64,000 nucleotides of DNA from Tetradesmus obliquus (Eukaryota; Chlorophyta; Chlorophyceae; Sphaeropleales; Scenedesmaceae), in the NCBI GenBank assembly GCA_030272155.1, contig CP126196.1, positions 4,333,501 to 4,397,500 on the forward strand. The letters run 5' to 3'. This document shows positions 18,645 through 63,685 of this stretch, piece after piece. The stretch's first letter is position 1. The number at the start of each line of letters is the position of its first letter. Below the pieces are notes generated by a model. The model was not told the DNA's origin. It saw only the letters and a list, made by a program, of their open reading frames with translations, and searched no databases. Made by a program: the position numbers and the translations under genes.

Positions 18645-21362
18645 CTACACAAAGAACGCTGCCGCGGGCCTGCTGTTGTGCTGCTGCACCTCCTGCAACT
18701 GCAAGCTGCCACTGGCCCCATTGCTGCTACTGCTGCTGCTGCTGCTGCTGCTCGACTGTGCGCCACTGCTTCTGCTGCCATCACTGCTGTCAGCAGCCGG
18801 CGGCGCCTGCTCCTCTTGCTGCTGCTGCTGCTGCTGGTACTGCTGCACCAGCTCCTCCGCTTGGTCAAAGTCAACGTAACGCTGCCGCTGCGCGTCATAC
18901 ACCAGCCATGCCGTCATCAGATTACGCAGCAGCTGCGCATTCGGCACCGCGATCGTCAGGTGCTTGCCGAGCCGCTGCTGCAGGTACTGTTGCGCCCCTT
19001 TCAGGTTGTAAGAAGGGATGCTGATGGATAGGTGGCTGGGCAGGTGGTAGTTGGCGTGGTGCAGCAGCACTTCTAGCCAGTGCGGCAGCTGCAGTGTGAC
19101 TGTGCCGTTAATGGCGGCCTGCGCGGCGTCGTAGGTGAGGCCCTGCCGTCACAAAGCACACACAGCAGCAGCAGGTGCAGCAGCAGATTAGTGAATGTTG
19201 ATGGGGGCCTGTGCGGGGTCGTAGGTGAGGCCCTGTGGACGCACACAGAAGCAGCAGCAGCTGCAGCAGCAGTGTGTGGAATTACCCAATTATACACCGC
19301 CCTGAGCAAGAGGCTGCTGCCTCTCCTTGCTCCTGCTCCTGCTGCTGCTGCAGGCAGTACAATGCGCATGGCGAACACCTCACCTCCTCCGTCTACGCGA
19401 TGTGTGGTCCAGTATGCTGCACCAGCAACAGCACGCTCAGCTAGCCATTAAACACCACCCAGGGCCCCAGCAACTAGTCTATAACAACCTGCTGCCCTCC
19501 TACACTGATGCTGCTGCTGCTGCCGCGAATGCAACACACTGCCAACAGCTCGTCAAGCCACCCAGCAACCCACCTCCTCCGTCCACGCGATGTGTGGTCC
19601 AGTGTGCTGCACCAGCGACAGCACGCTCAGCTAGCCATGGAACACCACCCAGGGACCCAGCCACTAGTCTAAACTACCTGCTGCCCTCCTACATTGATAC
19701 TGCTGCTGCTGCTGCCGCGAATGCAACACACTGCCAACAGCTCGTCACTGCTTGCTAAGCCACGACCCACCCAAACAACCCACCTCTTCAGTCCACGCGA
19801 TGTGTGGTCCAATGTGCTGCACCAGCGACAGCACGCTCAGCCAGCCATGGAACACCACCCACGGCCGCAGCCACTAGTCTATAACAACCTGCTGCCCTCC
19901 TACATTGATACTGCTGCTGCTGCTGCTGCTGCTGCTGCTGCTGCTGATGCAATGCAACACACTGCACACAGCTCGTCAAGCCACCAAGCAACCCACCTCT
20001 TCAGTCCACGCGATGTGCGGTCCAGTGTGCTGCACCAGCGACAGCACGCTCAGCCAGCCATGGAACACCACCCAGGGGCCCAGCCACCAGCTGGCCCACC
20101 CTCCCAGCCCACCAGCAGCCACCATGGCGGGCCAAGCCACTCCGATAAACCCTAATGGCAGGGCATAGCTCAGCCACACCCAGGGTCTAGCCTCCCTAGG
20201 GTGTAGCTTCAGATCAAAGCCCTCCAAAGACCTAAACCACTGGCCGATGGAGGAAAAGAACTTGAGGGGTGTGGCTGAGAGCAGCTGCAGCAGCGCTCGG
20301 CGCCAAGGGGGCAGGCCAGCGAGGTCTTCTGGCAGTATGGGGTGCCAGGCGTCTGTGTCCTCGTACAGCTGGTTCAGGCACCTGCAGGAAAAAGCGAGAT
20401 TGCGATGAAGTCAATACACATGTGTATCAGCATACGATAAAAGAGGGGAGCCAGGCATCTGCGTCCTCATACAGCTGGTAGTGGCACCTAAAACCCGGGC
20501 CAGCTCAACCCCAGCCACCTAACCTAAGCCCCGAGGCCAGCTGAACCCCAGGCCAGCAAAACCCTGTGCACACTCACATGAGGTGGTTGAAGTACTTGAG
20601 CCGGAACACTTCATAGCTCATCAGCGCCGGCGCCATCAGCACAGCACCCAGCACGTCCTGCAGCACCGGCCGCTGCGGCCAGAACGCAAAGTGCGCACAG
20701 TCAACCGCCGTTTGGAAAACCCCAAAGTAGCCGGTCCCAATGACCAGCCAGCAGGCCAGCTGCTGCCACAGCGGGCAAATGCTATGCCAGAACCATAGGT
20801 AGGCGTATCCTGCTGCCATGAGGCCTAGGGAGAGCGCCAGATAGCCAAACGCTTTGACCAAATCCAGTTCAAAATGCTCGTCTGGAATGGTGTCTGCAAT
20901 GGCTGGTAGGGAGAGGCCCTCTGGGAGGGGCCTGCCTACTTGCTGGTAGCCCCAGTCCTGCGCCTGCTGCTGCAGCTGCTGCTCGGTTAGGTTGTCGAGC
21001 CATGCTACTGCGCTGCGGCTCGGCGGCAAGTCTATTTGACCCAGCAGCTGCTGCTGCTGCTGCTGCTGATTATCCGCAGCTGGGGAGCTGGCAGGGTCGT
21101 CAGCTGCTGCTGCTGCTGCTGCTGCTGCTCGCCGCAGCTGCCAGCGCGGCTGAGGTGCTGCTGCTGCTGCGCTACTTAGGTGCTGCTGCTGGTGCGGACA
21201 GAGCTGCAAGGCCGGCCTGCGATTGAGAGCTGCTGCTATGTGATGCCTGCGGCCAGCGCCGCAGGCTGCTGCGGCGCTGATTCTACTGCTGCTTATGGAA
21301 GCCAGCTGCCTGTTTGGCAGTTGGCAGCCATTCAAGGCAGCTGACTGCATTTGTGACTGCAT
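18645..21362 (-). CDS. FAD6-like plastid omega-6 fatty acid desaturase homolog with eroded histidine boxes
   Basis: Exons 20578-21362, 19997-20381 and 18645-19142 join in phase to 555 residues. The N-terminus is transit-peptide-like (Ser/Ala/Arg-rich), and the body follows the FAD6/DesA order: PLPEGLSLPAIADTIPDE, hydrophobic segments, FDLKLHPREARPW, QHTGPHIAW, NGTVTLQLPHWLEVL and IPSYNL. The family needs three His boxes for its di-iron centre. Box 1, HDCAH in FAD6, reads VDCAH (residues ~220-224). Box 2, HDRHH, reads YFNHL (~257-261). Box 3, HIPHH, reads HLPSH. Active FAD6 introduces the omega-6 double bond into plastid membrane lipids; this copy is probably catalytically dead or altered. The C-terminal ~75 residues are a Gln/Ser-rich extension. 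Introns carry several ghost exon copies. Confidence 0.85.
19186..19233 (-). repeat. ghost copy of FAD6-like exon 3 start with acceptor
   Basis: It lies upstream of exon 3 in transcript order and repeats the acceptor and first ~40 bases of the exon (GLTYDPAQAP versus GLTYDAAQAA), then diverges into a stop. Confidence 0.8.
19380..19880 (-). repeat. three ghost copies of FAD6-like exon 2 end with donor
   Basis: Copies at about 19781-19880, 19571-19670 and 19380-19480 repeat the last ~100 bases of exon 2 and its GTGGGT donor, with a shared CTG-rich spacer, at a period of ~190-215 bp. The copy nearest the exon still reads PWVVFHGWLSVLSLVQH. The other two have in-frame TAG stops in the HGW(L) codons. 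Confidence 0.9.
20451..20496 (-). repeat. ghost copy of FAD6-like exon 2 start with acceptor
   Basis: TTTTAG|GTGCCACTACCAGC and the following ~30 bases parallel the true exon 2 start (CTGCAG|GTGCCTGAACC). They encode QLYEDADAW against QLYEDTDAW in the real exon. Confidence 0.8.
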
Positions 21363-22108
21363 CTCCGCAGCTGCAGCCACTCCTGCAAGCTTTTACTGTA
21401 ATGCTACTGTCTTCACTGTGCCTGCAGGAGCAGCACAGCAGATCGCTGTCAACAACAGTACCAGTCCAGCTGAGAAGGACAAGCTATCAAGATGGACCAT
21501 AGAAATGATATGTATGTGAATCGCTTCTAGCAATGAGCGAGCAAAAGTGCCAGTGACGGAAGAAGCTTGACGGCCGGCCTCACCTCAGCACGACAGCAAT
21601 GTCATGATGTAGGAAAACGTTTCCAAAGTCACGAGTCGCACGTTGAAATGGGGTAAGGATCTGCTGCTGTCCAGGTGACCTCGCTACTGTTGCCTGCAAG
21701 CTACAGGCTGGCTCTTCCTTGGGCCACCTTTTGATAGATCGACTTCAAACTAATCACTTAGAAACGTGCACTCGCTGTATAGCCATTATCTCCTTTCTCT
21801 GCATGACGCTGGTGTTGCATAGAGGCGGTACAGGGCTTTGACGTGGACGTTTTGTGTTGTGATCAAGGCTCTTGGCTGCTGCTCGAGCGAATTTGGCCGT
21901 CATTGCTTCAAACGTGGTATTACCTGCTCATCTACTCACCGCAGAGCTGTTGCAAGCAGTAGGACTGCAGCTCAGGCAGCAGTGCAGCAGCAGCACTAGG
22001 CCTCCACCAGTGCCTCCACCAGTGCCTGCAATCAAGCGCCTGCCGACTGCTTGCATCACAAACATAACAGCGTGAAACTCCCTTTAGTCCATTGCTTTTG
22101 TGGGCAGC
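21363..22108. promoter_or_regulatory. divergent intergenic region between FAD6-like and PotD-like genes
   Basis: About 750 bp separate the start codons of two oppositely transcribed genes, so both promoters must lie here. No TATA box or named element is recognisable, and no gene is supported. Confidence 0.5.
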
Positions 22109-63409: not shown

Positions 63410-63492
63410 GTGGGTGGGTGAGCAGCAGCAGCAGCAGCAGCAGCATGTCAGCAGGTGTGTGTGGCGCGAAGCAGCAGCTGCAGCAGAAGCAG

Positions 63493-63685
63493 CAGCAGCA
63501 AGCTGAGGGACAGGAAGGGCTTCGTGCGCATCACAGGCACGCAGCAGCAGTAGCAGCAATAGACACTAGTCATGACTAAAAGAATGGTTGCAGCAGCAGC
63601 AGCAGAAGTGGCTGCGGCATTAGCAGGAGTAGCAGCAGCAGCAAGCTAGCTGAGGGACAGGAGGGGCTTCGTGCGCATAGCAGGT
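63493..63685 (+). repeat. two ghost copies of DGAT2 exon 8 end
   Basis: AGCTGAGGGACAGGAAGGGC ... GTGCGCAT at about 63499 and 63650 repeats LRDRKGFVRIA, true end at 63409. The second keeps an AGCAG|GTGAAG donor. Confidence 0.88.

Follow-up and report, generated by a model that had tools for sequence, protein, structure and literature searches.

Exon-edge copies in neighbouring introns of Tetradesmus obliquus are probable relics of short tandem duplications across exon-intron junctions

Introner elements amplify intron-related sequence. In the potato RdRp gene, a new intron arose by tandem duplication across an intron-exon boundary, as described in excerpts of PMC4974935, which also refer to the AGGT model of intron gain (Rogers 1989; Hellsten 2011). 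Break repair is a source of small tandem duplications, described as short insertions that mostly measure below 100 bp (PMC8355091, in excerpt). Here we describe ghost junctions in a 64-kb stretch of the genome of the green alga Tetradesmus obliquus (GenBank assembly GCA_030272155.1, contig CP126196.1, positions 4,333,501 to 4,397,500; hereafter the window): diverged copies of exon edges, with their acceptor or donor sites, that lie in the adjacent intron. As in the potato case (excerpts of PMC4974935), the duplication crosses one boundary, the splice signals are inherited and a formerly exonic piece becomes intronic. Unlike that single new intron in one gene, existing introns seem to have been lengthened here, and at about 18% of the tested junctions. 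With the AGGT model, as outlined in the same excerpts, the ghosts share tandem duplication beside splice signals in a way that would leave the protein unchanged; they differ from it in that the unit is not an exon-only AGGT segment and the sequence following the ghosts is unlike the start of the downstream exon. Like break-repair duplications, the copies are direct and head-to-tail, whereas the unit here is of about 130 bp with an excess at exon edges, and a tie to splice junctions is not described in the excerpts of PMC8355091. A literature search of limited coverage turned up no description of introns that carry copies of exon edges throughout a genome.

The analysis covered the window (on contig 6) and 28 other 10-kb stretches from all 17 contigs, amounting to 344 kb, or 0.3% of the 104.66-Mb genome; an excerpt of a Sphaeropleales genome paper (PMC5966456) gives 109 Mbp for T. 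obliquus, 15.7% of it coding. All junctions are ab initio predictions without RNA support, made by a self-trained, hand-seeded gene finder whose training set was the window and the first 20 stretches, and which was applied unchanged to all 29 sources. It predicted 582 junctions, with the consensus CAG/GTGAG at donors and CTGCAG/G at acceptors (the slash marking the junction), and 509 were kept for testing after exclusion of those with less than 40 nt of exon or less than 80 nt of intron. After masking of simple repeats, as much as 150 nt from each exon edge was scored against the adjoining intron. The threshold for calling a copy was set at the 99.5% point of a null in which exon edges were paired with introns from other genes (the mismatched-gene null). 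Because copies that share an intron are not independent, simple significance figures carry less weight.

Direct copies of the exon edge were found in the adjacent intron at 90 of the 509 tested junctions (approximately 18%, about one in six), 154 copies in all, compared with only 6 matches in 2,615 in the mismatched-gene null and inverted copies at only 4 of 509 junctions. The window is denser than the rest, with 39 copies at 21 of 67 tested junctions, and copies were present at 69 of the 442 junctions outside it; exon-edge copying thus extends beyond the window. The ghost junctions of a preliminary description of this DNA are therefore real, and its count by eye of over fifty is plausible, given 39 by strict scoring plus the copies at approximately 41,618-42,420 and 54,652-55,139. 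A separate scan, with 40-nt edges on 264 kb, found copies at 45 of 195 junctions. When the window was compared with itself, 119 pairs of same-strand repeats lay within 3 kb of each other, and one block-shuffled version of all the sequence contained 1 local repeat, compared to 341 in the real one. The copied exon stretch fades inward, from 40/185 tiles at the edge to 19/171 at 40 nt, 2/76 at 120 nt and 0/56 at 160 nt. Because the copies differ from the exon by approximately 11% in the aligned exon part, assembly stutter is unlikely, as had been argued from their divergence.

Recognisable exon-edge copies make up 6.9% of the bases in introns of 80-1500 nt. Introns without a copy had a median length of 303 nt, compared with 331.5 nt for those with one copy, 549 for two, 544 for three and 639 for four or more (Spearman 0.27), a trend consistent with intron growth by copies, though longer introns also have more room for them. 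Copy frequency was uneven between stretches (chi-square 68 on 24 degrees of freedom), ranging from 0/18 in stretch L006 to 11/24 in L009. Six stretches (L006, L020, L024, L025, L030 and L031), with 11-18 tested junctions each, had no exon-edge copies; one of them, L020, carries an interior intron array at 4,105-5,100 with a 345-bp period and 91-95% identity.

The nearest ghost junction lay 71-380 nt from the real one, mostly at 100-150 nt (67 junctions). For 31 of the 56 nearest ghosts at 70-190 nt, those from exons of at least 140 nt, the unit measured 128 ± 22 nt, divided into an exon part of 52 ± 18 nt and an intron part, or spacer, of 76 ± 17 nt. None of these 31 had a spacer below 40 nt, and among all 56 only three did, down to approximately 22 nt. 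Centring of the units on the junction fits no better than breakpoints placed uniformly do, by simple arithmetic, if the spacer is 40 nt or longer and the exon part 20 nt or longer. Among the 66 nearest ghosts, 39 carry a copy of the intron part as well as of the exon part; the intron-part match begins no more than 4 nt from each junction in 30 of the 39 and spans at least 80% of the spacer in 28, as expected of head-to-tail duplication. Such ghosts are direct head-to-tail copies of exon and intron sequence together, in line with the repeated short tandem duplications across junctions, at high density, that the preliminary description had proposed. The copies are mostly edges, with a mean of 50-56 nt, but a few whole small exons were copied too (a 57-nt exon call in L009, and L028). 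Mutually exclusive duplicated exons were rejected as a candidate, the copies being mostly partial edges with frame-breaking insertions or deletions (indels). Some copies appeared to stop exactly at the junction; with gaps allowed many of them extend, but unrelated control junctions extend too, and one copy of this apparent class is affected by a dispersed repeat beside the donor.

Decay of the copies was followed in 57 ghosts with a homologous intron part. Their exon parts mismatched the live exon at 6.4%, 7.6% and 18.1% of first, second and third codon positions, and the paired intron parts differed by 16.4%, with 1.51 indels per 100 nt in the exon part compared with 3.24 in the intron part. 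This is the pattern that should result from one free lineage when a ghost is compared with a conserved exon and two when intron is compared with intron, exon third positions being nearly free. The 42 ghosts without intron-part similarity gave 8.2%, 8.2% and 17.3% at the three positions. Only 6 of 76 exon-part indels were multiples of three (24/125 in the intron part), so there is no sign of coding constraint, and a coding function of the copies was rejected on account of the 70 frame-breaking indels. The splice dinucleotide was retained in 87 of 99 ghosts (acceptor AG in 48/50, donor GT in 39/49), about what a change of 7-8% per site predicts by simple arithmetic.

Offsets of the ghosts were distributed over the three frames as 40/40/32 of 112, without an excess of multiples of three. 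Use of the ghost site would add the whole unit to the mRNA and would meet a stop codon in 85 of 112 cases; only 14 are both in frame and open. It had been suggested that the duplications survive because either splice site can be used, but with 98 of 112 ghost sites shifting the frame or hitting a stop, survival has no need of such use and that suggestion is not supported. Survival would rather require that the ghost not be used much.

In a set of 187 well-bounded introns, 46 had an edge duplication, five had interior duplications only and 136 had none. The simulation of uniform births used real introns that lacked detectable copies and allowed for decay, for the conservation of exons and for natural masking; it gave an edge:interior ratio of 0.76, or 0.68 when the range of ages was narrower, versus the observed 46:5. 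At the 34-of-40 threshold the counts were 30 edge and 4 interior-only, with simulated ratios of 0.67-0.75, and a mainly exonic scan window was found in 43 of 51 duplication-bearing introns versus 37% in the simulation. Among 123 arrays, 73 involved an exon edge facing an intron, 24 were intron-only, six intergenic-only, six exon-only and 14 of other kinds, whereas uniform placement would give 18% edge, 42% intron-only, 16% intergenic-only and 18% exon-only. Equal frequencies in exons and intergenic DNA, named beforehand as an outcome that would refute the interpretation, were thus not seen. That copies never lie within coding exons follows in part from how they were defined; the sample does contain 15 exon-only repeat pairs, with a period divisible by three in 13 and with six of the 15 coming from one array in L025.

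With direct orientation, unit size, co-duplicated intron part and freedom from frame all directly observed, ghost junctions are probably relics of head-to-tail tandem duplications of approximately 130 bp that cross the exon-intron junction, followed by drift. The unit would typically comprise 20-100 nt of exon and at least 40 nt of intron. Such a duplication would be harmless, since the outer copy remains attached to the body of the exon; the splice site of the outer copy would still be used, the inner copy would turn into intron and decay, and introns would lengthen stepwise from their own edges. Exon parts would stay recognisable for longer because one of the two copies remains conserved as coding sequence.

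Several findings weigh against so simple a history. The intron part was undetectable in 27 of the 66 nearest ghosts, and 42 of 99 junction-reaching copies lacked detectable intron-part similarity, contrary to what plain tandem duplication predicts; these 42 are about as diverged in the exon part as the other 57 (median 9.4% vs 8.8%). When detection relied on intron-intron similarity alone, 20 of 46 duplications continued into the exon, equal to the uniform expectation of 0.41 (17/29 counted by intron). As the edge excess appears in exon-inclusive scans but not in the intron-only scan, it resides chiefly in the similarity of exon parts and could be caused either by births that centre on junctions or by renewal of the exon parts. 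Moreover, in 42 adjacent ghost pairs, none of which included the live exon, the exon parts showed 10.4% mismatches and 0.63 indels per 100 nt and the intron parts 19.9% and 4.85, while a neutral simulation under the same detection gave 10.3% and 1.60 for exon parts and 11.6% and 2.54 for intron parts; that simulation has a rough indel model and used introns that retained existing copies, some returning more ghosts than the two inserted. The ages of exon and intron parts agree for pairs of live exon and ghost with a homologous intron part and disagree for adjacent ghosts. In the array before the exon starting at 56,245, two ghosts have exon parts identical over 31-32 nt and intron parts that are hardly alignable. 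Finally, the junctions depend on an ab initio gene finder that called some ghosts as exons, altering the counts.

The excess youth of the exon parts, itself a lead, would be explained by re-copying from the live exon; coding selection would not account for it, in view of the frame-breaking indels. That edge excess and exon-part youth go beyond simulated uniform duplication and drift most likely reflects junction-favoured duplication, occasional re-copying from the live exon, or both. More tentatively, and as something short of probable, junctions may be hot spots of approximately 130-bp tandem duplication or sources of repeated re-copying of exon edges into neighbouring introns, with introns growing outward and carrying a datable fossil record.

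Ordinary intronic minisatellites, born uniformly in non-coding DNA, might stand out at exon edges merely through exon conservation. The uniform edge share under intron-based detection (20/46) agrees with this, as does the finding that five of the ten events at 90% identity or more are intron-intron; intron-intron copies are also ordinary in G+C (0.549 vs 0.550 in the background), and a G+C preference was discarded for them. We nevertheless consider this origin unlikely, as the simulation, which includes the slower decay of exon parts, predicts an edge:interior ratio of about 0.7 rather than 46:5, as the mainly exonic windows (43/51) are far more common than simulated, and as interior-only introns are rare at the 34-of-40 threshold too (4 vs 30). 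Older ghosts might also be renewed recurrently by short tracts copied from the edge of the live exon, through gene conversion or template switching, which would keep exon parts young as intron parts age; this process alone could turn uniform births into an edge excess. It would account for the discrepancy between exon and intron parts among ghosts, for copies of exon sequence only being about as young as the others, for the uniform edge share under intron-only detection and for the array at 56,245 with its identical exon parts and much diverged intron parts. The shared exon tracts, however, measure only some 30-60 nt, and the rarity of spacers below 40 nt (3 of the 56 nearest ghosts at 70-190 nt) would be left unexplained, so that as the sole process it is possible but doubtful.

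A functional role of the ghosts, as alternative or decoy splice sites or as mutually exclusive exon edges under selection, is improbable. The excess of third-position changes is also seen between ghosts (6.4/8.0/14.2%), indels are few in the exon parts of adjacent ghosts and the acceptor AG is kept in 48/50; but exon edges copied at different times would also yield a third-position excess, the donor GT is kept in only 39/49, and the 70 of 76 indels that are not multiples of three, the even frame offsets and the 98 of 112 sites that would shift the frame or hit a stop all argue for the contrary. Least probable is intron gain through introner-like elements or through tandem duplication of AGGT-containing exon segments, the latter invoked in the preliminary description next to intron growth. 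The donor CAG/GTG and acceptor CTGCAG/G consensus do supply the needed motifs, and some of the short introns called, a few in number, sit within repeats of about their own length (94 nt with a period of 100 in L014, 100 nt with a period of 124 in L019). The sequence after the ghosts is, however, unlike the partner exon (median score 6.5 vs 7.0 in the null), which also led us to reject an origin from spliced RNA or from the partner exon. Introner elements and the spacers described here are alike in being amplified intron-related sequence; the difference is that the two spacer-bearing stretches tested matched only their own locus, in a search that skips very common words, and a dispersed source of spacers was accordingly dropped. 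The introns just mentioned (L014 6,636-6,741 and L019 7,471-7,747, with repeats of 91-92%), together with one of 177 nt in L017 at 6,992, adjoin repeats offset by 100, 124 and 223 nt, respectively, and are candidate newborn introns or mis-called coding repeats.

Table 1. Exon-edge copies and related features in the window.
Feature	Position	Strand	Details
Fatty-acid-desaturase-like gene	19384..19996	-	three copies (19784-19900, 19574-19692, 19384-19500) in following intron
Desaturase-like gene, copied segment	approximately last 117 nt of exon ending 19997	-	
Copy of first 25 nt of exon starting 19142, upstream of its acceptor	19208..19232	-	
Solute-binding-protein-like gene, intron	22868..23515	+	donor-side ghost 22900-22938
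Same intron	22868..23515	+	further donor-like copies within 23002-23088 and 23133-23171
Same intron	22868..23515	+	three acceptor-side ghosts 23187-23219, 23291-23331, 23403-23443; period approximately 112
Donor-side ghost of exon ending 23616	23705..23750	+	
Two donor-side ghosts of exon ending 24220	24296..24498	+	24296-24361, 24433-24498
Two donor-side ghosts of exon ending 24945	25043..25236	+	
Three acceptor-side ghosts of exon starting 25970	25519..25850	+	
Subtilase-like gene	39692..39902	+	diverged copies of end of exon at 39501
Whole and partial copies of 3' coding end with stop	41618..42420	-	main period approximately 182, up to 93%
Two donor-side ghosts of exon ending 48967	48596..48824	-	
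Acceptor-side ghost of exon starting 49161	49224..49284	-	
Donor-side ghost of exon ending 54198	54277..54306	+	GT lost
Four copies of end of exon 54496-54651	54747..55139	+	approximately 120-129 nt apart; read by eye
Acceptor-side ghost of exon starting 55495	55381..55420	+	
Four acceptor-side ghosts of exon starting 56245	55810..56171	+	
Three acceptor-side ghosts of exon starting 60767	60301..60694	+	
Three donor-side ghosts of exon ending 62560	62729..62933	+	30-32 nt each

The loci of the window are collected in Table 1. Frames flanking the 19,143-19,996 intron match consecutive parts of the Pfam family FA_desaturase: profile positions 72-187 score 30.0 bits, which just exceeds the cut-off, and positions 192-246 score 18.1 bits, which falls short of it. 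The exon starting at 25970 has matches to SBP_bac_6 and SBP_bac_8, both under the curated cut-off. The gene finder called as exons the copy at 23013-23042, the subtilase-like copy at 39831-39902 and copies in the region 54,652-55,139; all four copies read by eye in that region have a donor-like site after them, which in the last copy has become GC. The copies of the 3' coding end at 41618..42420 sit past the stop of an open frame ending at 42270, an end that the gene finder modelled differently. On the minus strand at 41,600-45,000 there are two adjoining similar genes, and the 3' coding ends of both resemble the copies past the stop of the first. A dispersed repeat of approximately 85-90 nt (62,576-62,666) begins 16 nt beyond the real donor of the exon that ends at 62560 and has at least 39 further matches at 83-89% identity, with 40 of 291 candidates scored. 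Elsewhere, the window contains a CA/GT microsatellite of approximately 650 bases (28,540-29,195), a 20-bp minisatellite of about six unchanged repeats inside a called intron (26,598-26,719) and, on the minus strand at 7,831-16,080, an open frame of 2,749 codons in which poly-A, poly-Q and poly-S are abundant and a motif like DPxxELxAMTAxVL recurs.

By homology of their predicted proteins, some ghost-bearing genes are clearly real. The predicted RPT2, formate-THF ligase and glutamate-cysteine ligase (chloroplast-type), from loci outside the window, align to solved homologues, and mis-called ghosts stand out in these alignments as repeats or insertions. The chloroplast type of this last ligase, the G+C content and the richness in CAG/CTG point to a green alga, possibly one of the Scenedesmaceae. 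Pfam matches at E ≤ 0.001 were obtained for 3 of 10 exons from copy-richer stretches and 4 of 10 from copy-poor or copy-free stretches; with such similar rates, the genes of the copy-poor stretches are not obviously false.

Ghost exons of this kind mislead gene finders: the one used here translated them in the three genes named above, so annotation of such genomes needs care. The origin of intron sequence is often unknown since its traces are erased; here a fossil record can be read, in which exon-edge copies represent datable steps of intron growth and the live exon is itself the conserved reference. Should the edge excess hold, it would point to some process of mutation or copying that is tied to splice junctions. 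Taken as a whole, the exon-edge copies suggest that introns in this alga grow partly from their own edges.

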